From contig JAJZCY010000009.1 of assembly GCA_021828835.1 (NCBI GenBank), positions 1-38,805 of the forward strand: a stretch of 38,805 nucleotides of DNA, in the 5' to 3' direction. The translations under genes were made by a program, and so were the position numbers. Shown piece by piece: positions 253 through 38,805 of this stretch (positions are counted from its first letter, which is position 1; each line of letters starts with the position of its first letter). The notes under the pieces are model-generated. The model ran no database searches. It saw nothing but the letters and a program-made list of their open reading frames with translations, and was not told where the DNA came from. The stretch comes from Acidobacteriota bacterium (GTDB lineage Bacteria; Acidobacteriota; Terriglobia; Terriglobales; Acidobacteriaceae).

Positions 253-415
253 TGCTGCATCTTAGCAACTCCGAAGCGCGAGCAGAGCTAGGGAATCCCC
301 GGGGGCTGTGGGGATTTTCAACCAGCGATACTCGGTCCGGGGTCCTCCCTACGGCCATCAGGAGATTGCCGACTGGCTGTAGGGTCCAGGCCTGATCGCC
401 GACGGGGATTCCGGT

Positions 416-1378
416 TTACGGGGTTGCACCGGCTGGCACCAGCAGCGTGAGGGCGTCGGACACGACCTCGAGGCGCACCGGGGCAGAGCCAAGTACTTCG
501 CCGTCGGCTTCGGCAAAAAGGCGGCCGCGGGATTCCCGCGGAGCGCGACATTCGACGCTGGACGCCTCCAGCAGTTGCACCGAGCCGTTGAAGCTATGCC
601 GTCCCGCCAGCACGGCGAGGAGAAAACGCATGTACTGGAGCCGGCTGCGGGTGCGGAAGGCGATCAGGTGCAGGTGCGCATTGTGAAGAGTGGCTCCCGG
701 CGCGAGTTGCCGAAGCGCTCCTCCAAAAGAACGAATACGGACTGCCAGCAGTTGCGACACCTCCAGGGTTTGCGTGACACCCGTGCCATTTTCCGCCACC
801 CGCGCCTCAAACAAGGGGAAGGGATGGGTAGCCCAGATGCGCGTAGCTTCGAGTAAGTAAAGCAGATACCCCAGGCGGCGCTTCAGGCGCCAATCCATCC
901 GGTACATCAGCAGAGCGTCGGGCCCGATGCCGGCCGCGACGACAAAGTAGCGCCAGGCCGGGGCCCCAGAACAGTCGGTGTAGTGGATGCGCCCCACCGG
1001 AATGCGAACGCGATCGGCCTCAAGCAGCTTTCGGGCGACCTGGGCGGGGGGGGCGATCAGCCCCAGATCTGCAGCCAGGGCATTGGCGGTTCCGAGGGGC
1101 AGCACGCCCAGCCCGATCTCAGTGCCGACCAGCGCCTGCGCCAGTTCGTGTACCGTGCCGTCGCCGCCGCAGGCGATGACCGCGTCACAGCCCTGCTCGA
1201 CGGCCTCGCGGGCGCGCCCCGTGCCGGTACCCGGACCGCTGGTTTCGAGGATGATGACTTCCACCCCGGCTCCCTGCAGCGCCGTCGCGGCTTCGCGAAT
1301 GGCGGCCTGGCGGCTTGCCGAATACTGTCCGGAAGCGGGGTTGTAGATAAGCGCCACGCGGCGCATCGTTGTCTTCAC
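416..1378 (-). CDS. Diacylglycerol kinase/YegS-BmrU family lipid kinase
   Basis: N-term RRVALIYNPASG, catalytic CDAVIACGGDGTVHELAQALVG and LGVLPLGTANALAADLGL motifs. Confidence 0.93.
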   Translation of the reverse strand: MKTTMRRVALIYNPASGQYSASRQAAIREAATALQGAGVEVIILETSGPGTGTGRAREAVEQGCDAVIACGGDGTVHELAQALVGTEIGLGVLPLGTANALAADLGLIAPPAQVARKLLEADRVRIPVGRIHYTDCSGAPAWRYFVVAAGIGPDALLMYRMDWRLKRRLGYLLYLLEATRIWATHPFPLFEARVAENGTGVTQTLEVSQLLAVRIRSFGGALRQLAPGATLHNAHLHLIAFRTRSRLQYMRFLLAVLAGRHSFNGSVQLLEASSVECRAPRESRGRLFAEADGEVLGSAPVRLEVVSDALTLLVPAGATP

Positions 1379-10460: not shown

Positions 10461-13400
10461 GTGACATACGGCATCGATTCGTCTCCCGCCCTGCTTGATG
10501 TAAATCCCAGAAGGCGTACAGGAAGCCGGCCATGGACCACGCGGCTGTTGCGGGCCATGGCCTGGTTAGGAGCTGTTGCGCAGTGCGCGGTGCTGCTTTC
10601 GGGACAAACCGCGGCAAAGCCGGCCGACAGCTCCAGCAAAAAAGCGGTCGCTCGCAAGATGCCGGCCACTTCCCCGCTCACTCAGGAGATGCTCTCCTCC
10701 TATGAGGGGCAAAACGTCTCCGCTATTCACATCATTGGCCGGCCCGATCTCAATCCGCAGCAGTATGCGTCGGCAATGGTGCAGAAGGTGGGAAAGCCGT
10801 TCTCTAAAGCAAAAGTGGAAGCCACCGCGGCGGCCCTGAAGAAGGCCGGACACTTTCCCGAGGTACAGATTCGGGCGGAGCCGACAGCTAAAGGCGTGGA
10901 AGTGCAATTCGTCCTGGAGCCGGGCGACTACTTCGGCATCTTCTCCTTTCCCGGCGCGGAACGCTTTCCCTACGCGGAACTGATCCAGAGAGCCAACTAC
11001 CCGCCCCAGAATCCGTTCAGCTCCTACGAGATCGAGGGGGATCGCAAGAGCCTGAAGACTTTTTTCCAGCGGGAAGGCTATTTCAATGCGCAGGTCCATC
11101 CTCACGTCCACCTGAATCCCGCCGACTCGATCGCCAACATCGAGTTTGCTACCCAGTTGAGGAAGCAGTCGAAGTTCGGGTCGGCCGTGGTGCAGGGAGC
11201 GCCGAAGAACGAGGATGCGCAGCTTGCCAGCAAACTCACCGGCATCATGGCGCGGCTGCACGGAGCCGGCATTCGCCCCGGCAAGGCTTACCACCACAGC
11301 ACGATTGTGCGTGCGCGCCGCTACCTCCAAAAGCAGGTGATAGGAAAAGGCTATCTGGGCGCCAAAGTGAATGTCGACGGAGCCCAGTACGATTCCCAGG
11401 CCAACCGCGCCAACATCTACTTCACCGTGCATCCCGGAGTGCTTACGCACGTCCAGATCAACGGCGCACACCTGTGGAGTTGGGACAAGAAGGACCTGCT
11501 GCCGGTCTACCAGGGCATCGGAGTCGACCAGGAAGCCGTGCAGGAAGGCACCCAGGCCTTGATCTCCTATTTCCAGAAGAAGGGCTACTTTGATGTGAAG
11601 GTCAACGCCAAGCTGAATACCAGCCCCAGTGGCGACACCGTCATCTACAACATCACCAAAGAGAAGAAGCATGAAGTGACCGCGATCCACATCACCGGGA
11701 ACACTCACCTTCCCGACTCCAAGCTGATGCCCAGCGTGGCGCTCCAGAAGAAGCATCTTTTCTCTCCGGGCGACTACAGCAATCAGCTCGTGCAGTCGAG
11801 TATTAAGAACCTGACCGGGATCTACAACTCGGAAGGATTCAGCAAGGCCAAGGTAACCGCGGCGGTACATCGCGCCGGCGATGACATTCAGGTGACCTTT
11901 CATGTGGTCGAAGGCCCCCAGAACATCGTCCATGCAGTAGCGATCGAGGGTGCCGAGACCTTCCCGGAGGCGCAGTTCGCGCCCAACGGGCTCAAGGTGC
12001 GGCCGGGGCAGCCCTATTCCGCACAGCACGTGGAAGAAGACCGCAACCAGATCATCGCCAACTATCTGAAGGCCGGCTATCTCAATATGAGTTTCCGCGA
12101 GACGGCATCGGAGGTTTCGAGCACCGAGCCGCATCAGATCAATGTTGTCTACCACATTGATGAGGGCCCGCGCGTCACCACCGGGAAGATCATCACCCTG
12201 GGGCGCAAGCGCACGGCGCGGAGAATCATTCACAGCGAGACGACTGCGCTGCAGCCCGGGAAGCCGCTGCGCGAGCAGGACATGCTGACCGCGGGCAGCA
12301 AACTGTACGATCTGACCGGCGTGTTTGACTGGGCCGAGGTGGACCCCAGACGGCCAATCACCACCCAGACCAAGGAAGATGTTCTGGTAAAGGTGCACGA
12401 GGCGAAGAGGAACGAGTTCCAGTATGGCTTCGGCTTCGAAGTGATCGAACGCGGCGGCAGCATTCCCAGCGGAACCGTAGCGCTGCCCAATCTGCCGCCG
12501 GTCGGGCTGCCGCAGAACTTCACCACCAGCCAGCAAACGTTCTACGGCCCGCGGGGAACGGCGCAGTACACGCGCAACAATCTGCGTGGCAAAGGCGAGT
12601 CCATCACCGCGACCGCCTTCGCGGGCCGGCTCGACCAGCGCGGGGCTCTCTACTACATCGATCCCAACTTCCGCTGGACCCACTGGAAGGCCACCTCCTC
12701 GGTGAGCGTGGAGCGGGACGAAGAGAACCCGATCTTCTCCTCGCAAATGGAATCGGGCACCATGGAGTTGCAGCGGCCTATCGATCGCGCGCAGAAGAAC
12801 ATCGTGTTCTTCCGCTACCGCTTCAGCAAAACAGACCTGACCCGGGTGCTGATCCCGGCTCTGGTGCCCACCGAGGACCTGCATATCCACCTCTCGACCT
12901 TCGGCGCCAACTTCACCCGCGATACTCGCGACAATCCGCTGGACGAGCATCGCGGCATGCTGGGAACCCTCGAACTGGACATGAACTCAACCAAGTTGGG
13001 TTCCAGCGTCGACTTCGCCAAGCTGACGGGGCAGTATGCCTTTTATAAGGAGAAGATCCACCACATAGTGTGGGCCGACAGCATCCGCATTGGCCTGGCT
13101 CAGCCGTTCAGCCGCAGCTTTGTTCCGCTTAGCGAGGCGTTCTTTACCGGCGGTAGCAATACCCTGCGCGGGTTTCCGCTGGACGGCGCCGGACCGCAGC
13201 GCTCGGTGCAGGTGTGCAGCAGCGGCGCCAGCTCCGCATGCACCTTCATTCGTGTGCCGGCCGGCGGCAACGAACTGCTCATCCTGAACTCCGAGGCCCG
13301 CATTCCGCTTTCCGGCATCAAAAAGGGCCTGGGCTATGTGCTCTTTTACGACGGAGGCAATGTGTTCCCCAGCGTCGGGTTCCACGATTTCACCTCGCTC

Positions 13401-13538
13401 TATTCCAACAGCATAGGCTTCGGCTTGCGTTACGCCACCCCGGTGGGCCCTATCCGCTTTGACATCGGCCGCAATCTCAATCCGATCAGCGGCATCAGCG
13501 CGACCCAGTACTTCGTCACCATCGGGCAGGCATTTTGA
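10461..13538 (+). CDS. BamA/TamA-family outer membrane protein with POTRA repeats
   Basis: Signal-peptide-like N-term, multiple POTRA-like repeats (GKGYLGAKV, KGYFDVKV, AGYLNM), C-terminal beta-barrel (FFTGGSNTLRGFPLDGAGP, GPIRFDIGRNLNP, terminal F). Confidence 0.93.
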   Translation: MTYGIDSSPALLDVNPRRRTGSRPWTTRLLRAMAWLGAVAQCAVLLSGQTAAKPADSSSKKAVARKMPATSPLTQEMLSSYEGQNVSAIHIIGRPDLNPQQYASAMVQKVGKPFSKAKVEATAAALKKAGHFPEVQIRAEPTAKGVEVQFVLEPGDYFGIFSFPGAERFPYAELIQRANYPPQNPFSSYEIEGDRKSLKTFFQREGYFNAQVHPHVHLNPADSIANIEFATQLRKQSKFGSAVVQGAPKNEDAQLASKLTGIMARLHGAGIRPGKAYHHSTIVRARRYLQKQVIGKGYLGAKVNVDGAQYDSQANRANIYFTVHPGVLTHVQINGAHLWSWDKKDLLPVYQGIGVDQEAVQEGTQALISYFQKKGYFDVKVNAKLNTSPSGDTVIYNITKEKKHEVTAIHITGNTHLPDSKLMPSVALQKKHLFSPGDYSNQLVQSSIKNLTGIYNSEGFSKAKVTAAVHRAGDDIQVTFHVVEGPQNIVHAVAIEGAETFPEAQFAPNGLKVRPGQPYSAQHVEEDRNQIIANYLKAGYLNMSFRETASEVSSTEPHQINVVYHIDEGPRVTTGKIITLGRKRTARRIIHSETTALQPGKPLREQDMLTAGSKLYDLTGVFDWAEVDPRRPITTQTKEDVLVKVHEAKRNEFQYGFGFEVIERGGSIPSGTVALPNLPPVGLPQNFTTSQQTFYGPRGTAQYTRNNLRGKGESITATAFAGRLDQRGALYYIDPNFRWTHWKATSSVSVERDEENPIFSSQMESGTMELQRPIDRAQKNIVFFRYRFSKTDLTRVLIPALVPTEDLHIHLSTFGANFTRDTRDNPLDEHRGMLGTLELDMNSTKLGSSVDFAKLTGQYAFYKEKIHHIVWADSIRIGLAQPFSRSFVPLSEAFFTGGSNTLRGFPLDGAGPQRSVQVCSSGASSACTFIRVPAGGNELLILNSEARIPLSGIKKGLGYVLFYDGGNVFPSVGFHDFTSLYSNSIGFGLRYATPVGPIRFDIGRNLNPISGISATQYFVTIGQAF

Positions 13539-13548
13539 TGAGGGCCTT

Positions 13549-16500
13549 ATGAATACAGCGCTTCGACTTCCCCCTCAACCCGACGGACCGGATCCGGGCA
13601 AACCTAAGAAGAAGCACCGCGGCTGGAGAATCCTCGGGTGGTCGGTTCTCGGCCTGATCTGCCTGCTGATCGCTGTGCTCGTGGCCTTGGGCGCAATGAT
13701 CGACACGGATGGCCTGCACAAGGCGCTGCTGAGGTTCGCCGACCAGGAAGCCGCCAAAGCGCTGGGCGTAAACGTCCAAATCCAGAATTTCGTACTGCAC
13801 TGGGGATCGCTGAGCCTGGACGTCTACGGGGTGAAGATCGCCGGCGCCGGAGATCACCCCAATCCGCCGCTGCTCCAGCTGCAGCACGCCGAAGTAGGCG
13901 TGCGCATCGTTTCCATCTTCAAACGCGAGTGGTACCTGAGCTCGCTGCGCCTCGACAAGCCGGTGGTCTGGATGTACGTGGACGCGAATGGCCACTCGAA
14001 TCTGCCCACCTTCAAGAGCAGCAAAAGCAGCGGCAATAACAATATGCTTTTCACCCTCGGCGTCCGCCACGCAGTTCTGGACGGCGGCGAGGTGTACTAC
14101 AACAGCGTGCCCAAGGCGATCGACGCCGACTTGCACAATCTGGATCTGCACGCAGCGTATGCTCCGGCGCAGCAGATGTACAGCGGAGAGATCGCCTACA
14201 ACAACGGGCACCTGAAATACGGAGTCTACCGCCCGATTCCGCACGACATGTCGATGGCGTTCAAGCTTACGCCCACTACATTCCAGCTGAACCGCGCGCG
14301 GCTGGCGGTGGGCAATTCGACGGTGCTGCTGACCGCCGCGGTGAACCACTACCATCACGATCCAGCGATGCAGGTGGATTACCATGTGTCGCTGGATGGC
14401 ACCCAGATGGCGCAGTTGCTGGGGAATCCGGCAATTCCGCAGGGCACGATCCGTGCGGCCGGGGCCATTCACTTCGACGACATTCCCGGGCAGCCGATGA
14501 TGCGTACGCTGACGGTGAACGGTGACCTGAGCAGCAATCAGCTCCTCCTCAAGACCGCTGCGCGCACCGCGCAGATCTCGAACCTGACTGCGCACTACGC
14601 CGTTGCGAATGGCAATGCCGCGCTCCAGGACTTCCACGCTCAGGTACTGGGCGGCGACGTAGCGGCACAGGGCACCATGACGAACCTCGGCGCCAACAAT
14701 TCACGGTCCGATTTCAGTGCGGCGTTGCACAACATCTCCCTGACACAGCTCAAGCAGATGGCGGGGAATCAGCCGGCCGTCCGATCCGTTGCGCTGGCGG
14801 GAACGCTCAATGCCACGGCCCATGCGACATGGGGCAAAACGATGCAGGACCTGGTGGCGCGCGTAGATGCCGGCATGAATGCGAAGGTAGCTGGAAAGCA
14901 GCAGGCCGCGGCGGGCAGTTCCGCAACGGTTCCTCTCGACAGCCAGATCCATGCCACCTATACGCGCGCCAACGGACGGCTGCAACTGACCCACAGCTAT
15001 TTGAAGACCGCACAGACGACGCTGATGCTCAACGGGACGGTAGGCCGGAGTTCCAGCCTCGCCATCCGGCTCCAGGCGAACAATCTGAGCGCGCTGGGCA
15101 ACGTGATGGATGCGTTGCGCACCCCCGCGCCGAATCAGCAGCCGCTGAACCTGGCGGGCACGGCCAGCTTCGTTGGCAACGTGACCGGCTCAACCTCTGC
15201 GCCGCATCTGACAGGGCAACTTGCCGCGCTCAATCTGCGGATCAACCAATCTTCCTGGAAATCCGTTCGTGCGGGCGTGGATGCCAGTCCCGACCATGCC
15301 ACGTTGCAGAATGCCGTGATGATTCCAGCCACCAGGGGTCGCATCCAGGTCAACGCGCGGGCCGGGTTGACGAAGTGGAAGTTCAGCAAGCAGAGCCCGA
15401 TCCAGGCGCAGGTGCAGGCTTCGCGCATCGACCTCGTCGACCTGACGCAGTTCATGACCACTCCGCCGCCTGTGACGGGCACGCTCTACAGCAATCTGAG
15501 CCTGCACGGCAGCATCGCCAGCCCGCAGGGCAACGGCAATCTCTCGCTGACGAAGATGACGGCGTACCAGCAGCCCATCAATTCGCTGGATATGAACTTC
15601 TCGGGGACCGGGAACCAAGCGCGGGCGAAGCTTACGGTTCGCATCCCGGCCGGCACCGTGCGCGCGAATGTAACGGTGCAGCCCAAGCAGCGCACCTATA
15701 CAGCGCAAGTGACCTCTTCGGGAATCTCGCTCAACAAGGTGGCCGCGATCCAGAACCGCGGCCTGAAGGCAGAAGGTGTGATGCAGCTGCACGCCTCCGG
15801 CCAGGGCAGTTTCGCTAATCCGGAACTGGCGGCCACGGTCCAGATTCCCACGTTGACGGTCTCGAATCAGATCATTCACGCGGTGAACCTGCAGCTGAAG
15901 GTGGCAAACCACGTGGCCGACGCGGCGTTGAGCTCATCGGCGCTGAACACCTCCATCCAAGCCAAAGCCCACGTGGAGCTGACCGGCGACTACATGACCG
16001 ACGCCACCCTCAAAACATCGGTGCTGAACCTGAAACCGCTGCTGGCGATCTACTCGCCCAGCCAGGTACAGAATATCAGCGGTCAGACGCAGATTCAGGC
16101 CACAGTTCACGGGCCGGCGAAGAACCTGAAGCAACTCGAGGCGCATTTCACGATTCCGGTTCTGAATCTGGCTTATCAAAACTCCATTCAGCTCGCCGAG
16201 GCCGCGCCCATCCGAGTGAACTACAAGAATGGCGTGCTGGACGTGCCGCAGGGCGGAATTCGCGGAACGGATACCAACCTGACCTTTGCAGCGCACGTGC
16301 CGACCGATCGCACCCAGCCCATGTCACTGCGCCTGGGTGGCACGGTGAACCTGCAAGTGGCCCAGCTCTTCAATCCGGACATTCACAGCGGCGGCGAGTT
16401 GCGGCTGAATATCGACTCGCACGGACCGATGGCCAACGGCAACATCGGCGGCGAAATCGATGTGGTGGATGCCAGCTTTGCGGAGGGCACCATGCCGGTT

Positions 16501-17586
16501 GGCCTGCAACATGGCAACGGGGTGCTCAAGCTGACTACGGACCGGCTCAACATCGCGAGCTTCGAAGGCACGGTGGGCGGTGGCAAGGTGCAGTTGCAGG
16601 GGGGCGTGACCTACCGTCCGCATCTTTCTTTCGACCTGGGCATGTCCGCGCGAGGCATTCGCATGCTCTATCCGCAGGGCCTGCGCGAAACCATCGGCGC
16701 CAATATTCACTTGGGCGGCACCACGACCAGTTCGCTGGTGGCGGGCACAGTGAACCTGACCGACCTGTCGTTCACGCCGGGATTCGACCTGACCAGCTTT
16801 GCCGGCGGGTTATCGGGCGGAGTGGCAGCGCCACCTTCGCAGGGCGGCATGGAGCAGAACATGCGCCTGAACCTGAATGTGCGCTCCACCAACAATATTG
16901 ATCTGGTAAGCCGCCAACTCAGCGTCAATGGTGCGGCGAATCTGCAGGTCGTGGGCACCGCCGCGCAGCCGGTGATTCTGGGCCGGGTGATGCTGACCGG
17001 CGGCGATGTAATCCTGAACGGCAACCGTTTTTTACTCTCAGGGGGCACCATTCAGTTCGTCAATCCTTCGCAAACTGAGCCGGTGCTCAATCTGGGCCTC
17101 TCGACGACCATCCAGCAATACAACATCACCATGCACTTCCGCGGACCGGCACAGCAGATTCATGCCGACTACGCGTCGAACCCGGCCCTGCCCACAGCAG
17201 ACATCATTCATCTGCTGGCCTTCGGAGATACCACCGAGGCTGCGGCCAATAACGTGACGCCGGCGAATCAGCAGGCGGAGTCGCTGGTGGCTTCGCAGGT
17301 GGCCAGCCAGGTGACGAGCCGCATCTCCAAGGTGGCCGGCATCTCGCAGCTCTCTGTGAGCCCGGTGCTGCAAGGAGGAACGCAGGAGGGGCCGCCGGGG
17401 GCAACCGTCACGGTCCGGCAGCGGGTCACCGGAAATCTGTTCATCACTTTTTCAACCAATGTGGCGTCCACGCAGGATCAGGTGATCCAGGGCGAATACA
17501 AGATTTCGCCGAAGGTTTCCTTTAGCGCAACCCGCGATCCAAATGGCGGCTTCGGCTTCGACACGCTGATCAAGCATTCATGGTGA
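13549..17586 (+). CDS. tamB: TamB/DUF490-type translocation and assembly module protein
   Basis: N-terminal TM anchor, very long repetitive beta-rich region, C-terminal TamB domain (GGTIQFVNPSQTEPVLNLGLSTTIQQYNI, LPTADIIHLLAFG, QGEYKISPKVSFSATRD). Directly follows the BamA/TamA-like gene; ATG at 13549 chosen over the upstream overlap. Confidence 0.9.
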   Translation: MNTALRLPPQPDGPDPGKPKKKHRGWRILGWSVLGLICLLIAVLVALGAMIDTDGLHKALLRFADQEAAKALGVNVQIQNFVLHWGSLSLDVYGVKIAGAGDHPNPPLLQLQHAEVGVRIVSIFKREWYLSSLRLDKPVVWMYVDANGHSNLPTFKSSKSSGNNNMLFTLGVRHAVLDGGEVYYNSVPKAIDADLHNLDLHAAYAPAQQMYSGEIAYNNGHLKYGVYRPIPHDMSMAFKLTPTTFQLNRARLAVGNSTVLLTAAVNHYHHDPAMQVDYHVSLDGTQMAQLLGNPAIPQGTIRAAGAIHFDDIPGQPMMRTLTVNGDLSSNQLLLKTAARTAQISNLTAHYAVANGNAALQDFHAQVLGGDVAAQGTMTNLGANNSRSDFSAALHNISLTQLKQMAGNQPAVRSVALAGTLNATAHATWGKTMQDLVARVDAGMNAKVAGKQQAAAGSSATVPLDSQIHATYTRANGRLQLTHSYLKTAQTTLMLNGTVGRSSSLAIRLQANNLSALGNVMDALRTPAPNQQPLNLAGTASFVGNVTGSTSAPHLTGQLAALNLRINQSSWKSVRAGVDASPDHATLQNAVMIPATRGRIQVNARAGLTKWKFSKQSPIQAQVQASRIDLVDLTQFMTTPPPVTGTLYSNLSLHGSIASPQGNGNLSLTKMTAYQQPINSLDMNFSGTGNQARAKLTVRIPAGTVRANVTVQPKQRTYTAQVTSSGISLNKVAAIQNRGLKAEGVMQLHASGQGSFANPELAATVQIPTLTVSNQIIHAVNLQLKVANHVADAALSSSALNTSIQAKAHVELTGDYMTDATLKTSVLNLKPLLAIYSPSQVQNISGQTQIQATVHGPAKNLKQLEAHFTIPVLNLAYQNSIQLAEAAPIRVNYKNGVLDVPQGGIRGTDTNLTFAAHVPTDRTQPMSLRLGGTVNLQVAQLFNPDIHSGGELRLNIDSHGPMANGNIGGEIDVVDASFAEGTMPVGLQHGNGVLKLTTDRLNIASFEGTVGGGKVQLQGGVTYRPHLSFDLGMSARGIRMLYPQGLRETIGANIHLGGTTTSSLVAGTVNLTDLSFTPGFDLTSFAGGLSGGVAAPPSQGGMEQNMRLNLNVRSTNNIDLVSRQLSVNGAANLQVVGTAAQPVILGRVMLTGGDVILNGNRFLLSGGTIQFVNPSQTEPVLNLGLSTTIQQYNITMHFRGPAQQIHADYASNPALPTADIIHLLAFGDTTEAAANNVTPANQQAESLVASQVASQVTSRISKVAGISQLSVSPVLQGGTQEGPPGATVTVRQRVTGNLFITFSTNVASTQDQVIQGEYKISPKVSFSATRDPNGGFGFDTLIKHSW

Positions 17587-20955: not shown

Positions 20956-21756
20956 CTATTTCCTTCCCAGGGAAGATTCTTCCACCGCATCGCGCCATCT
21001 CTCCAGAAAGTCGAGCAGTGCTTCCGGCGGCTTGAGCCATACATCGGCGGCGGTGTCGCGCAGCTCGGGGCGGACCAGAACGCTCAGTCCGCGGCCCTGC
21101 AAGGCGCGAAACGCCGCCTCGTCCGTGAGGTCGTCGCCGAGATAGGCAGCCGGTCCGCAATCGGCGCACTCGGACAGCAGAGTATCGACCGCGGCGCTCT
21201 TGTCGCGGCCGGCGCGCAGCTCCAGACCAGCCTCAAAAGGCAAGAGCCGGAAGCCCTGCCCATGCGCCAGCGGCTCAAAAAGAGCGCGCGTGCGCCGCTC
21301 GACCTCTGCGGCTTGCTGCGCCGACAGCCCGCGCCAGTGCATGACCGCTGCATTGGGTTTGGCCTCGTAAAGGCCGCCGAAGCTGTCCCCCGTAAGCTGC
21401 TCGTGCACTGCGCTGAGATTCCTCTGGACCGGATCGGGCAGGTGCTCGCGCTCATGCCGGCCATCGGGATGCAGCCGCTCAAACCCGTGCAGACCCCAGA
21501 TCTCAATCGGCTCGCGGAGACCGAGCAGCGACCCAATCTCCGAGCCGGGACGGCCGGTCACGACCACCATCCGCGTGACCTGCTGATCCTGAATCTGCTG
21601 AAGCAGTTCGCGCGCGCCCGGCCAGGGCACGGCCTGGAAGCGATCCACGTGAAACGGCGCCAGCGTGCCATCGTAATCGAGCAGCAGGAGCGGGCGGCGT
21701 CCTGCTGCGAAGCCGCTGAAGAAGCGATTCAGAATTGGAGCTGTGTCGGCAGTCAA
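20956..21756 (-). CDS. otsB: Trehalose-6-phosphate phosphatase
   Basis: HAD motif LLLLDYDGTLAPF, VVTGRPG, GLHGFERLHPDG, KSAAVDTLL, AYLGDDLTDEAAF; adjacent to the TPS gene on the same strand. Confidence 0.95.
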   Translation of the reverse strand: MTADTAPILNRFFSGFAAGRRPLLLLDYDGTLAPFHVDRFQAVPWPGARELLQQIQDQQVTRMVVVTGRPGSEIGSLLGLREPIEIWGLHGFERLHPDGRHEREHLPDPVQRNLSAVHEQLTGDSFGGLYEAKPNAAVMHWRGLSAQQAAEVERRTRALFEPLAHGQGFRLLPFEAGLELRAGRDKSAAVDTLLSECADCGPAAYLGDDLTDEAAFRALQGRGLSVLVRPELRDTAADVWLKPPEALLDFLERWRDAVEESSLGRK

Positions 21757-32523: not shown

Positions 32524-33609
32524 ATGATTACCGTCAACGCGCTCACACGCAGGTATTCCCATACCGTTGCCGTCGATCAAATCTCATTTTCGGTCGAGAA
32601 GGGCCAGATCGTCGGCTTTCTGGGCCCAAATGGCGCCGGCAAAACCACCACCATGCGGATGCTCACCTGCTTCCTGCCGCCCACCTCGGGCACCGCCCAG
32701 GTCGCAGGCTACGACATCCTCGAGCAGTCGCTCGAGGTCCGCAAGCGCATCGGCTATCTGCCCGAGACGCCTCCTCTCTATACCGACATGGAGACGGCCG
32801 AGTACCTGCGCTTCGCCGGCCGACTGAAGGGCATGTCGGGCCAGGAGCTGGACGGGCGCATCGAGTACGTGCTGGGCCGCTGCTCGGTAGCCGACGTCCG
32901 CAACAAGCTGCTGGGCAAGCTCTCCAAGGGCTATCGGCAGCGCGTCGGGCTGGCCGCCGCCATCCTGCACAATCCCGACGTGCTTATCCTCGACGAGCCC
33001 ACCGCCGGCCTCGATCCCAAGCAGATCAACGAGACCCGCGACCTGATCAAGGACCTGGCCGGCGAGCACACCATTATTCTGAGCACGCATATCCTGCCTG
33101 AAGTGGAGCAGACCTGCCAGCAGGTGGTCATTATTAACAAAGGCAAGCTGGTGGCCACCGATTCGGTCGCCAACCTGCAAAGCCGCGCCCGCGGCGTCGA
33201 GACCACCATCCTCGAAATCGCCCCTGCCGGGGGCGGGCTTCTGGACGACCGGGTGCCCCAGGTCCCCCGCATTTCGGGACCTGGGAAACCACAAACCTCT
33301 GTCCTGGATATCGATCGCATCCAGCGCACTCTCGCCCAGGTCCCCGGCGTCAGCCGGATTCTTCTCAAGGAACAGCGCGACAACACCGCCATCTTCGAGA
33401 CCGAGAGCCCGCGCGGCGCGCTGGTGCGCGGCGATCTGGCACGCGCGGTCATCGCCGCCGGCTGGGATCTGAACGAGCTGCGGCCAGGCGCCATGAGCCT
33501 GGAAGAAATTTTCCTGCGGCTGACTGGCGGCGACGTCGCCCAACCTCAACTTGTGCCGCCGCCAGCCGCTCCGGAGGAACCCCAAGCCCACCAGGAGCCC
33601 AACGCATGA
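32524..33609 (+). CDS. ABC transporter ATP-binding protein (GldA-type)
   Basis: FLGPNGAGKTTTMRML, LSKGYRQRVGLAAAILHNPDVLILDEPTAGLDPKQ; followed by permease and GldG-like genes. Confidence 0.95.
   Translation: MITVNALTRRYSHTVAVDQISFSVEKGQIVGFLGPNGAGKTTTMRMLTCFLPPTSGTAQVAGYDILEQSLEVRKRIGYLPETPPLYTDMETAEYLRFAGRLKGMSGQELDGRIEYVLGRCSVADVRNKLLGKLSKGYRQRVGLAAAILHNPDVLILDEPTAGLDPKQINETRDLIKDLAGEHTIILSTHILPEVEQTCQQVVIINKGKLVATDSVANLQSRARGVETTILEIAPAGGGLLDDRVPQVPRISGPGKPQTSVLDIDRIQRTLAQVPGVSRILLKEQRDNTAIFETESPRGALVRGDLARAVIAAGWDLNELRPGAMSLEEIFLRLTGGDVAQPQLVPPPAAPEEPQAHQEPNA
33257..33285. repeat. Palindromic element within the GldA-type ATPase gene
   Basis: CCCAGGTCCC-CCGCATTTC-GGGACCTGGG, encoding VPQVPRISGPGKP in-frame. 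Confidence 0.7.
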
Positions 33610-34373
33610 AAAACATCTGGATCATCTTCTCCAAGGAGATGAAGAGCTACTTTGCGTCGCCCATCGCGTGGCTGCTGCTAACGCTCTTCGCCGTCGTCTT
33701 CGGTTACTTCTTCTGGACCGCGCTCGAGTTCTTCACCACCATGAGCATGGAGATCCAGATGAGCGGCCAGGCCTACCCCATCAACGTGAATGAGCAGGTC
33801 ATCCGGCCGCTGCTCGGCAACGTGAGCGTGCTGGGGCTCTTCTTCATTCCCCTGATCACCATGCGGCTCTTCGCCGAGGAGAAGCGTACCGGCACCATCG
33901 AACTGCTGGCCACCTCGCCGGTGCGCGATGTCGAGATCATTTTGGGCAAGTGGCTGGCGGCGCTGGGACTCTACGCCTGCATGCTCTTCTTCACCGCCAT
34001 CAACTTTGCGTTTCTATTTCACTATGGCAAGCCTGACTGGAAGCCGCTGCTGGTCGGCTTCCTGGGCCTGCTCTTGCAGGCGGGTGGATTGCTGGCGCTG
34101 GGCACGTTCATCTCGACGCTCACGCGCAACCAGATCATCGCCGGCGCCGCAACCTTCGCGGTCTGCCTCTTGCTTTTTGTGTTCGCGTGGGTGAGCGGCT
34201 TCAACTCCGCCACCTGGGCCACCGTGTTGGCCTACTTCTCCGTGGCCACGCACGATGAGTCCTTCGCTCGCGGGGTGCTCGACTTGAAAGACTCTATCTA
34301 CTATCTCAGCGTGATTTTCCTGGGGCTCTTCTTCACCGCCCGCTCCATGGAAGCGCTGCGCTGGAGGTCTTGA
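33606..34373 (+). CDS. ABC transporter permease (GldF-type)
   Basis: MKNIWIIFSKEMKSYFASPIAWLLLTLFAVVFGYFFW; FAEEKRTGTIELLATSPVRDVEIILGKWLAALGLY; ATGA-type overlap with the ATPase gene. Confidence 0.94.
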   Translation: MKNIWIIFSKEMKSYFASPIAWLLLTLFAVVFGYFFWTALEFFTTMSMEIQMSGQAYPINVNEQVIRPLLGNVSVLGLFFIPLITMRLFAEEKRTGTIELLATSPVRDVEIILGKWLAALGLYACMLFFTAINFAFLFHYGKPDWKPLLVGFLGLLLQAGGLLALGTFISTLTRNQIIAGAATFAVCLLLFVFAWVSGFNSATWATVLAYFSVATHDESFARGVLDLKDSIYYLSVIFLGLFFTARSMEALRWRS

Positions 34374-34382
34374 GAAACGGGA

Positions 34383-35765
34383 ATGGCGAATCAGTGGAAC
34401 AAGGCGAGGCAGACCCGTTATGCGCTCTATGCGGTGTTCTACGTTCTGGTGGTGATCGCCGCTGCGGTGATCGTGAACGTGCTGGCCAACCGCTACGACA
34501 AGACCTGGGACTCCACCTCAAACAAGCGCTACAGCCTCTCCGAGGAGACGCACAAGATCGTGGGCGGCCTCAAGCAGGAGGCCACCATCCTCTACTTCAA
34601 CCAGAGCACGCGCTTCGCCCAGGCGCGTGACCTGCTCGACGAATACAAGAACCTGTCGCCGCGCGTGCGCATCCGCTATGTGGATCCGGACAAGGATCCC
34701 ACTCTGACCCGCGCCGACGGCGTGCAGAACATGGGCACCGCGATCGTGCAGATCGGCGACAGAAAAGCTACCGCGACGGCCTTCTCCGAAGAGGGCATCA
34801 CCGGCGCCTTCATTCGCGACATCAAGACCAATACGCGCACCGTCTGCTTTGTCACCGGCAGCGGCGAGCACCAGATCGACGCGAGCGGCCGCGACGGTCT
34901 CTCCGAGTTCAAGACCGATCTCGCCAAGGAAAGCTATCAGACCCAGTCGATTGATCTGCTGAGCAAGGCCCAGGTGCCTGCGGATTGCACGGTGGCGGTG
35001 GTTGCCGGTCCGCAGCACGATTATCCGCAGACCGAGGTGGACGCGATCCAGAAGTATGTACAGGGCGGCGGCCGCGCCATGTTCCTGCTTGACCCGCCGC
35101 TGAAGGGCCGCGTCACCAATATCGCCGCCAATGACGCGCTCGACAGCATGCTCTCGGGCTGGGGCATCACGCTCCAGAAGGACCTGGTGCTCGATCTCAA
35201 TCCCATCGGCCAGCTCACCGGCACCGGCCCCGAGGTTCCGCTGGTCACCAGCTACGATTCGCAGCCTATTGTGAACGATCTGCGGGGCAACGCCACCGGC
35301 TTCCCGCTGTCGCGCTCGCTCGATGTGCACGGCACGCCGCACACCACCGTGCAGGCGCTGTTCAGTTCGTCCAGTTCCAGCCTGGCCGATACCAATCTGG
35401 CTGCCACCGAGGTGCGCGTCAACGATCCCAGCAACCGCAAGGGACCACAGACGCTGGGCGCGGCGGGCACTTACAACGCCGGCAAGGCGAGCGCGCAGGG
35501 CCGCTTCGTGGTGATCGGCAGCTCCACCTGGCTCACCAACAGCTTTCTGAACTTCAACGGCAACGCCGACCTGGCGGTCAATGCGATCAACTGGCTGGCC
35601 TCCGATGAGGACCTGATTTCGATTCATCCCAAGCCGCCGGACAACCGGCCGGTGACCATGACCAAGGCGCAGATGGGTCTGGTGCGCATCACCAGCCAGT
35701 TCATTCTGCCGCTCATCATGATCGTGCTGGGCACGCTGGTCTGGTGGCGTCGCCGGCGCTCGTAG
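34383..35765 (+). CDS. GldG-type ABC auxiliary protein
   Basis: N-term TM, NKRYSLSEETHKIVGGLKQEATILYFNQ, ...LLDEYKNLSPRVRIRYVDPDKDP, C-term TM plus WWRRRRS. Confidence 0.92.
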   Translation: MANQWNKARQTRYALYAVFYVLVVIAAAVIVNVLANRYDKTWDSTSNKRYSLSEETHKIVGGLKQEATILYFNQSTRFAQARDLLDEYKNLSPRVRIRYVDPDKDPTLTRADGVQNMGTAIVQIGDRKATATAFSEEGITGAFIRDIKTNTRTVCFVTGSGEHQIDASGRDGLSEFKTDLAKESYQTQSIDLLSKAQVPADCTVAVVAGPQHDYPQTEVDAIQKYVQGGGRAMFLLDPPLKGRVTNIAANDALDSMLSGWGITLQKDLVLDLNPIGQLTGTGPEVPLVTSYDSQPIVNDLRGNATGFPLSRSLDVHGTPHTTVQALFSSSSSSLADTNLAATEVRVNDPSNRKGPQTLGAAGTYNAGKASAQGRFVVIGSSTWLTNSFLNFNGNADLAVNAINWLASDEDLISIHPKPPDNRPVTMTKAQMGLVRITSQFILPLIMIVLGTLVWWRRRRS

Positions 35766-35889
35766 ATTTCGATTGCAGTTTTGCTCGTGCATCGTACGTG
35801 ATTTCCCAGGTTTCTCAAAGGCAAGACCTGGGGCGTCCCAGCATTCAGGCGAGGACGCAATTCACTCTCTTCGCTTTGGAACCTCTGCT

Positions 35890-37206
35890 ATGAAGAGTGG
35901 AAAACAATTTCTGGGTCTTATTGTTGCCGTCGTCGTGCTTGGCGCGCTATCGGGTGTGTTGTATTGGTCCAACCGCCATCCCGCTAAGAAGCCGATCGCC
36001 CCGTCGCTCCAGGGCGGTCCTGTTGTGATGAAGGTCAACCCCGCAAAGGTGACCGCCATCGCGATCACGCCCAAGGATGCGCCGCCGATCGAACTCTCAA
36101 AGCAGACGAATGGCACCTGGCAGATCACCGCTCCCGAAAAGATGCGCGCCGACGGCAGCACCGTGGTGGAGATGCTCGAAAACATCGCGCCGCTTCATGC
36201 CCACAGCGTGGTGGAAAACAATGCGACCGACCTGAAGACCTTTGGTCTCCAGGATCCAACGCTTCAGGTAACGATCACCTCCCAGGGCGGCACAACACAG
36301 AAGCTGCTCTTCGGTGATAACACTCCCATTGGCAGCAATGTCTACCTGATGCTTGCGGGCGCCCCGCGGGTCTTCGCCGCCTCAGAGGAGCTCAAAAGCG
36401 AACTCGGCCAAAGCGTCACGGAGTTGCGCGACAAGCGCCTGATCAGCATTCCGGCGGACCAGATGACCCGCATCGAACTCACCCGTGCCGGCCAGACCAT
36501 GGTGCTGGCGCGCGCGGACTCCACCTGGACGCTGAAGAAGCCGGCGCCTTACCGTACCGACACCATCGCCGCCGACAGCCTTGCCTCCGCGCTGGGCAAT
36601 GCTGTCATGGACGCCAGCCAGCCCGGCCAGAAGCAGTCGGCGGCCGCTTTCGCGCATGGCACTCCCGTCGCCAGCGTGAAAGTGACTGGCCCCAACGGCG
36701 AGCAGCAGACCCTTGAGATTCGCAAGGATCATGGAACCGACTACGCGAAGTCGAGCTGCGTGTCCGGCGTCTATCAGGTGGATTCGTATCTGGCCGATGC
36801 CATGGCCAAAACCGTGAACGACCTGCGCAACAAGCAGATCTTTGCGTTCGGCGACAGCGATCCCGATTCGATTGATATCCAGGCCACCAATCCAAAAGAG
36901 TCTGGAGCGGAGCTCCGCAACGCACAGGGCTGGTGGCGCGACGGCAAAAAAATGGACAGCGCCAAGGTGGAGTCGCTCGTCTCCGCGCTGCGCGAGCTTT
37001 CGGCAGTCACGTTCGCCAGCAACGGCTTCACCAAGCCGATGCTCACGATCACAGTGAAATCCAATGGCGGAAACCGCGTCGAAAAGGTCGAGATCGCAAA
37101 GAACTACAGCCAATATTACGCGCGGCGCGGCAACGACCCTTCGCTCTACTTGCTGGACGGCGGCGCAGTGGAAGGCATCGAGAGCGCAGCCGCTGCCATT
37201 CAATAA
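35890..37206 (+). CDS. DUF4340 domain-containing protein
   Basis: N-terminal TM; follows the GldA/F/G-type genes; VYLMLAGAPRVFAASEELKSELGQSVTELRDKRLISIPADQMTRIEL typical of DUF4340; start placed at ATG 35890. Confidence 0.88.
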   Translation: MKSGKQFLGLIVAVVVLGALSGVLYWSNRHPAKKPIAPSLQGGPVVMKVNPAKVTAIAITPKDAPPIELSKQTNGTWQITAPEKMRADGSTVVEMLENIAPLHAHSVVENNATDLKTFGLQDPTLQVTITSQGGTTQKLLFGDNTPIGSNVYLMLAGAPRVFAASEELKSELGQSVTELRDKRLISIPADQMTRIELTRAGQTMVLARADSTWTLKKPAPYRTDTIAADSLASALGNAVMDASQPGQKQSAAAFAHGTPVASVKVTGPNGEQQTLEIRKDHGTDYAKSSCVSGVYQVDSYLADAMAKTVNDLRNKQIFAFGDSDPDSIDIQATNPKESGAELRNAQGWWRDGKKMDSAKVESLVSALRELSAVTFASNGFTKPMLTITVKSNGGNRVEKVEIAKNYSQYYARRGNDPSLYLLDGGAVEGIESAAAAIQ

Positions 37207-37771: not shown

Positions 37772-37906
37772 AGCACGCCTCCAGACCGGATGGTGTGGTC
37801 CGATCGTTCCAATCAGGGGAATTAACTATAGTTTAGCCCTTTCCCCGCTCTCTGGGAACACTTTCCACCGGCCAGGCGGGCAGCCCCCGCGTGGTTCAAT
37901 AGGTAT

Positions 37907-38805
37907 ATGACACGAGTGGCGCGACTCATTCTCGCACTGATCGTGGGCCTTGCGGTGCTGACCTTTGCGGCCTCCGGAGTGGTGGAGTCCACGGTCCGCC
38001 AGTGGTCGGAGCGCGACATGGAGGCTCGCGCCCTGCTGGTGCTCACCGGTGCGCGTCCGGCTCTGGCCGACGCCTGGTACGATCCCGCTGCCCTGAAGAA
38101 ACAACTGGATGCCCTGGATAGCGATCAGCGGGTGATCGGCGTTGCCGCCTGCGGCGAGGACAACTCCACCCGCGCCATCACCGCTGATTTCCCCGCCGCC
38201 TTCGGCTGCGCGGACGTGGGTCCGCGCGTCCGCGATTTGGAGGATAACTTTACCCGCAAGCCACGGGACTGGACGATCGTCGCCACCCTGCCTACGGGAC
38301 TTGCGCTGGTCAGCGCCATGCCGGTCCAGGTCAACGGCCAGACCCTCGGCTTCGCCATCCTGGTCCACGACCTCAGCTACATCGATACCCGCCAAAGGCG
38401 TGCCCAGACCTTTCTGCTCGCCATCTTCGGCGCTCTCGCCATCATGGCCTTCGGGATTCCGATTCTGGTGAACCGCCAGGCGCGGCGCGAGTGGAGCCTG
38501 GAACTGCGCGACCTGCTCCGCGGCCGCGGCAAGCAAACCCGCGAGTTCCAGCCCATCCTGACCGACATGCGCGAGCTGATCGGCCGCATCGTCAACGAGC
38601 GTGAGGACGATCCCGGTCGCTGGACCGCCGAGCGCCTGAAACACACCCTGAATCGCTACCTCCAGGGGGAGAAGGTGGTGATTCTCGCCAACCGCGAGCC
38701 GTACATTCATCACCGGACGGCCAACGGCGAAATCGAGGTGCAGCATCCCGCCAGCGGTCTGGTCACCGCCCTCGAGCCCATCATGCGCGCCTGTTCCGGC
38801 GTAGA
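37907..38805 (+). CDS. Second membrane sensor-TPS fusion (truncated at window end)
   Basis: Open frame to the edge, absent from the ORF track: MTRVARLILALIVGLAVLTFAASGVVESTVRQ... second TM TFLLAIFGALAIMAFGIPILV ... DDPGRWTAERLKHTLNRYLQGEKVVILANREPYIHHRTANGEIEVQHPASGLVTALEPIMRACSGV, closely matching the start of the GT20 domain in 21841-24192. Confidence 0.9.
   Translation, partial: MTRVARLILALIVGLAVLTFAASGVVESTVRQWSERDMEARALLVLTGARPALADAWYDPAALKKQLDALDSDQRVIGVAACGEDNSTRAITADFPAAFGCADVGPRVRDLEDNFTRKPRDWTIVATLPTGLALVSAMPVQVNGQTLGFAILVHDLSYIDTRQRRAQTFLLAIFGALAIMAFGIPILVNRQARREWSLELRDLLRGRGKQTREFQPILTDMRELIGRIVNEREDDPGRWTAERLKHTLNRYLQGEKVVILANREPYIHHRTANGEIEVQHPASGLVTALEPIMRACSGV

Follow-up and report, generated by a model that had tools for sequence, protein, structure and literature searches.

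Does the open reading frame that runs off the end of this Acidobacteriaceae contig (the window, 38,805 nucleotides analyzed in full) encode a second, divergent fusion of a membrane sensor to a trehalose-6-phosphate (T6P) synthase, as a sequence-only reading had proposed, and if so, what would a sensor module contribute to a sugar-phosphate glycosyltransferase? The window is a whole contig (C321) of a fragmented genome that is 87.6% complete, and the frame, which we again found open from its ATG to the window end, continues past it. Searched against its own genome, the open reading frame also matched a contig (C186) over residues 258-299 at 100% identity, and the first 126 bases of that contig are all identical to window sequence (Table 1). 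Joined, the two contigs give a 745-residue protein, TPS2; beyond position 38805 the frame runs on through a full GT20 domain with the motifs QDYHF, RLDYTKG and DGMNLVAKEF, rather than closing early without them.

The final three bases of the window (38803-38805, AGA) disagree with C186, probably as an artefact of the contig tip. This mismatch is what could be said for a wrong join, with TPS2 reduced to a truncated pseudogene at a contig edge; given the identical 126 bases, the end-to-end alignment of the joined protein with orthologs from three genomes of the same genus (residues 1-744, 1-742 and 1-741, 74-75% identity) and the fact that the same clade is closest to both halves of TPS2, we consider such an error extremely improbable. 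By blastn, homology to these orthologs sets in at the ATG or slightly 5' of it (window 37891-37906) and stops near the stop codon. Because the orthologs align over their full length and the DNA similarity covers just the TPS2 gene, the join is trustworthy: the gene cut at the window edge is real, and it is complete across the two contigs.

Table 1. Positions of the sensor-GT20 fusions and the otsB gene; positions refer to the window unless a contig is named.
Feature	Position	Strand	Basis or remark
TPS2 5' part, 299 of 745 codons, sensor-GT20 fusion	37907..38803	+	open frame
TPS2 N-terminus and TM helix 1, residues 1-30	37907..37996	+	hydropathy; AF2 helix 3-55
TPS2 extracytoplasmic PAS/single-Cache-like domain, residues 31-160	37997..38386	+	AF2, Foldseek WalK/CitA, conservation
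TPS2 TM helix 2, residues 161-190	38387..38476	+	hydropathy; within long AF2 helix 157-204
TPS2 cytoplasmic linker, residues 191-255	38477..38671	+	HAMP-like helices in model; weak HAMP profile match
TPS2 GT20 start, residues 256-299 (NREPY, PASGLVTALEP)	38672..38803	+	Pfam PF00982 on joined protein
126-bp overlap used for the join	38677..38802	+	identical to L006:1-126
TPS2 remainder, residues 300-745	contig C186 (locus L006), stop ends at base 1468		joined sequence
TPS1, first sensor-GT20 fusion, 783 aa	21841..24192	-	
TPS1 parts: TM 4-33; Cache-like ectodomain about 34-165; TM 166-194; HAMP-like linker about 195-257; GT20 277-752			
otsB (trehalose-6-phosphate phosphatase), directly downstream of TPS1	20956..21756	-	PF02358

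The catalytic half is recognizable. PF00982 covers residues 256-721 of TPS2 (E 3e-116, 389 bits; TPS1 401 bits; cut-off 32.5), the nearest PDB proteins by sequence are T6P synthases, and the AF2 model of an ortholog (L037) matched T6P synthase crystals, 5jio with E 5.6e-37 and TMt 0.92 and E. coli OtsA (1gz5) as well. Aligned to OtsA of E. coli MG1655 (Met1 numbering), both TPS1 and TPS2 carry equivalents of R10, G23, Y77, W86, D131, H155, R263, K268, R301, D362 and E370, which we take, from established knowledge of the OtsA structure, to be active-site positions. The expectation that the two proteins share an enzymatic output is thus borne out at the level of residues. With OtsA (CAZy GT20, PF00982; E. 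coli, Mycobacterium thermoresistibile) TPS2 has in common the GT20 fold, all the substrate and catalytic positions checked and, as a family, linkage to otsB; it differs by about 255 additional N-terminal residues that make up two TM helices and an extracytoplasmic domain, and it has S for the first G of the GG loop (SG, not GG) and H for R before DGMN. Since TPS2 and TPS1 score 406 and 433 bits against the NCBIfam OtsA equivalog TIGR02400, below its cut-off of 564.85, we treat them as a divergent T6P-synthase-like subgroup rather than as OtsA proper, and their exact donor and acceptor are for the same reason not certain.

For the N-terminal half, hydropathy places TM segments at residues 1-30 and 166-190, in agreement with the two segments around some 135 residues noticed earlier, and an AF2 model built for the 299 residues that lie inside the window (pLDDT 84.5, mostly 93-98 in the ectodomain) retrieved with Foldseek the kinase WalK (whole-protein model 9a5d at E 1.6e-7, as well as crystals of the ectodomain), CitA and amino-acid chemoreceptors. 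The histidine-kinase-type layout, two TM helices on either side of a PAS/Cache ectodomain, is thereby confirmed; the order of TM, PAS/Cache, TM and HAMP-like helices is that of WalK/CitA sensor kinases, but TPS2 has no HisKA or HATPase domain, and its output domain is a sugar-phosphate glycosyltransferase. The resemblance extends to detectable homology with histidine kinases of the same phylum. In 197 of its genomes, the N-terminal 250-260 positions of a fusion profile also match proteins that have no GT20 domain (best E 1.8e-26), and the five of these that we examined are histidine kinases, in which Pfam identifies HAMP, HisKA and HATPase_c; with the TM segments removed, the ectodomains still match histidine kinases at E 3.2e-11 (TPS1) and E 2.4e-8 (TPS2). 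The linker, which in TPS2 ends in a conserved W-T-x-x-x-L motif, matches histidine-kinase HAMP well in TPS1 (E 4e-7, 93%) and weakly in TPS2 (E 0.0026, probability 12%); a Pfam scan reported HAMP for neither protein. A receptor-like N-terminal half is strongly supported by the predicted structure and by the occurrence of the same module on kinases. Four kinases of the phylum that share the TM-Cache-TM-HAMP module with the fusions lie at L123:278-1894 (+), L124:1973-3547 (-), L125:1671-3137 (+) and L126:2011-3462 (-), and their partners and ligands could point to the signal of the fusions.

TPS1 lies on the minus strand about 13.7 kb away (some 14 kb had been estimated), and the motif stretches reported as parallel between the two proteins are present in both. 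That TPS2 is a second fusion divergent from the first is evident from identities of 51% in the GT20 domain and about 16% in the ectodomain. The suggestion that the extracytoplasmic regions are unrelated did not hold: without TM segments, hhalign pairs them at 97.7% and E 1.4e-12, and controls with reversed sequences, used for all ectodomain comparisons, were negative (E >= 0.1). They are diverged homologs with a WalK/CitA-like PAS/Cache fold. Across phyla, the ectodomain of the TPS2 family has invariant W33 and D37, and R41, D73, R75, C82, P96, C101, G131, G148, H154, D155 and S157 are near-invariant; R162 is likewise invariant in TPS2 relatives. Because the near-invariant pair C82/C101 of TPS2 relatives is absent from TPS1, it is plausible that the two proteins receive different inputs.

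Relatives of TPS2 are confirmed in named genomes at least 585 times, and the family statistics given here refer to the best 80 of these. They come from about ten phyla: Acidobacteriota, Myxococcota, Thermodesulfobacteriota, Nitrospirota, Bdellovibrionota, Pseudomonadota and Gemmatimonadota, together with single MAGs labelled Planctomycetota, Verrucomicrobiota and Spirochaetota. The match extends through the N-terminal module in 79 of the 80, the exception (L047) being cut by a contig end. The otsB gene adjoins 75 of the 80 loci, nearly always directly downstream on the same strand, and a GH15 gene, with a trehalase-like N-terminal domain (TREH_N) in those tested, lies near 51. Reduced membrane forms occur: L011:1117-3039 encodes a membrane-anchored relative that has two TM segments and no extracytoplasmic domain, and L136:3755-5596, on an Aminobacter plasmid, one with a single anchor and likewise no such domain. 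MscS genes lie near a sensor-TPS gene in 8 of the 80 loci (L109:609-1760, L113:1874-3703, L080:8195-9259, L111:7922-9064, and in L038, L040, L102 and L112), by a weak profile. They would fit osmotic stress; as a conserved neighbor, MscS was set aside, since an initial cluster of 20 loci fell to 8 of 80 with a model built from two seed sequences, and it is a weak hint.

Within the phylum, a full-length fusion was found in about 19 of the 197 sampled genomes, and besides the window's genome two of them (G045 and G143) have two. In a GT20 tree (midpoint root) all fusions are separated, at 95/98 support, from the order's soluble enzymes; the TPS2 types form one multi-phylum clade (100/99), in which the Acidobacteriaceae group adjoins Polyangium-type sequences of Myxococcota, and TPS1 falls in the clade of its genus. 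By this tree TPS1 and TPS2 belong to old, separate clades, and recent duplication is ruled out as their origin. The idea of a receptor-trehalose family in this genome therefore stands in part: the genome, as far as it is complete, has exactly two GT20 genes and both are sensor fusions, but the family is not private to it, the clades being old and the TPS2 type spread over about ten phyla.

The window's genome departs from its relatives in one respect. Its TPS2 locus has no adjoining otsB, so that the otsAB-operon arrangement is seen at TPS1 only, and the otsB gene beside TPS1 is the only PF02358 gene found in the 87.6% complete genome. Among close relatives this absence is peculiar to the window's genome (L007-L009 keep otsB). 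Neither tblastn nor blastn found a credible otsB or GH15 relic beside TPS2, the sole significant otsB signal being the partner of TPS1, and the two GH15 genes of the genome lie on other contigs. The place that otsB has in the relatives, 3' of TPS2, is taken by a convergent gene (L006:1520-2023, minus strand) whose product is c-type cytochrome-like, having two CxxCH motifs. Elsewhere in the window, four genes at 32524-37206 resemble by eye a Gld-type ABC transporter (ATPase, permease, GldG-like, DUF4340-like), and at 10461-17586 a BamA/TamA-like protein of the outer membrane appears, also by eye, to precede a very long protein resembling TamB.

Taken as an architecture, TPS2 is well supported by sequence: an input module of histidine-kinase type (TM, extracytoplasmic PAS/Cache, TM, HAMP-like linker) is fused to GT20 in place of a kinase. 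Because a kinase sensor module is reused and ectodomain residues are conserved across phyla, we infer that TPS2 is probably a transmembrane, receptor-like T6P synthase in which a signal gates T6P synthesis through the membrane. Acting on the extracytoplasmic domain, such a signal (a small solute, a physical stress or a redox stress) would shift the TM and linker helices, which would switch the activity or oligomeric state of GT20; T6P would be made from nucleotide-glucose and glucose-6-phosphate and then dephosphorylated to trehalose by OtsB. Trehalose synthesis would thus follow outside conditions with no need for new transcription. The window's genome would then have two such receptors, TPS1 with otsB beside it and TPS2 lacking it, served by one common phosphatase. 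Counting against this are the weakness of the TPS2 linker as a HAMP domain, the L011 and Aminobacter relatives, the lack of an otsB neighbor at the genome's own TPS2 and the score below the OtsA cut-off.

The main rival to signal gating is that the TM and Cache-like part merely anchors or oligomerizes a T6P synthase that is constitutively active, placing it, for instance, close to an exporter or to the machinery for envelope glycans. The reduced N-termini (no ectodomain in L011, one TM anchor in Aminobacter) would suit an anchor, as would an ectodomain that evolves faster than GT20; yet a large clade keeps W33 and D37 invariant across phyla, along with near-invariant polar residues and cysteines, and histidine kinases use the same module, which is therefore more than a pure anchor would need. 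We consider a mere anchor unlikely.

Two further readings concern what GT20 does. The product may be another phosphorylated glucoside, such as glucosylglycerol-phosphate, instead of T6P: the OtsA and glucosylglycerol-phosphate synthase equivalog models are both below their cut-offs, and the S in the glycine loop and the H before DGMN could be taken the same way. Set against this, the glucosylglycerol-phosphate synthase model scores lower than the OtsA models, the neighbors are OtsB-family phosphatases and trehalase-like GH15/TREH_N proteins, and the glucose-6-phosphate contact positions are kept, so that such a product seems improbable. Alternatively, GT20 might mainly read intracellular nucleotide-glucose or glucose-6-phosphate and signal outward or to a partner, with catalysis secondary, in the manner of Arthrobacter OtsA, which has been reported as an osmotic-stress sensor through T6P (PMC5685639). 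The retention of all catalytic positions and of otsB beside 75 of the 80 loci favors flux over a dead receptor, and we find a reverse sensor of this kind very improbable.

Taken singly, GT20 and the Cache/HAMP modules are well known. The two occur together in hundreds of genomes, and the open-access literature searched yielded no description of the combination: queries for a bacterial TPS carrying HAMP, a sensor domain or a sensor in the periplasm gave nothing relevant, and a transmembrane TPS goes unmentioned in the accessible portions of an evolution paper of 2006 and a review of 2024. A relative of the TPS2 clade in a plasmid collection is annotated, where the annotation is readable, only as “trehalose-6-phosphate synthase,” and the membrane half is therefore easily overlooked. 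The closest parallels differ in arrangement. In the msc-gt-tpsp operon of Thermoproteus tenax, a TPS-TPP fusion has a separate glycosyltransferase as its activator (PMC3634074); there a T6P synthase is genetically tied to a mechanosensitive channel, as perhaps in the 8 loci with MscS found here by a weak model, but the membrane part is a gene of its own, while in TPS2 it is fused. The stress sensing of Arthrobacter OtsA, ascribed to T6P level and OtsA self-assembly (PMC5685639), likewise implicates a T6P synthase in sensing, with no membrane receptor fusion.

More broadly, and more tentatively, the family may consist of widespread one-component receptor enzymes in which outside stress directly gates the synthesis of T6P, as a solute precursor or a signal molecule, in place of the kinase output that a two-component sensor has, with some bacteria having two such enzymes tuned to different inputs; we hold this as a possibility somewhat short of even. 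Cultured hosts usable for testing include Paucimonas, Noviherbaspirillum, Ramlibacter and Anaeromyxobacter. Control of trehalose synthesis in bacteria is usually attributed to transcription and to allostery of soluble enzymes. If the receptor reading is true, osmotic or desiccation sensing and solute synthesis would be a single step and, with related genes numbering in the hundreds and spread over many bacterial phyla, an outside signal may directly turn on the synthesis of protective trehalose in some bacteria.
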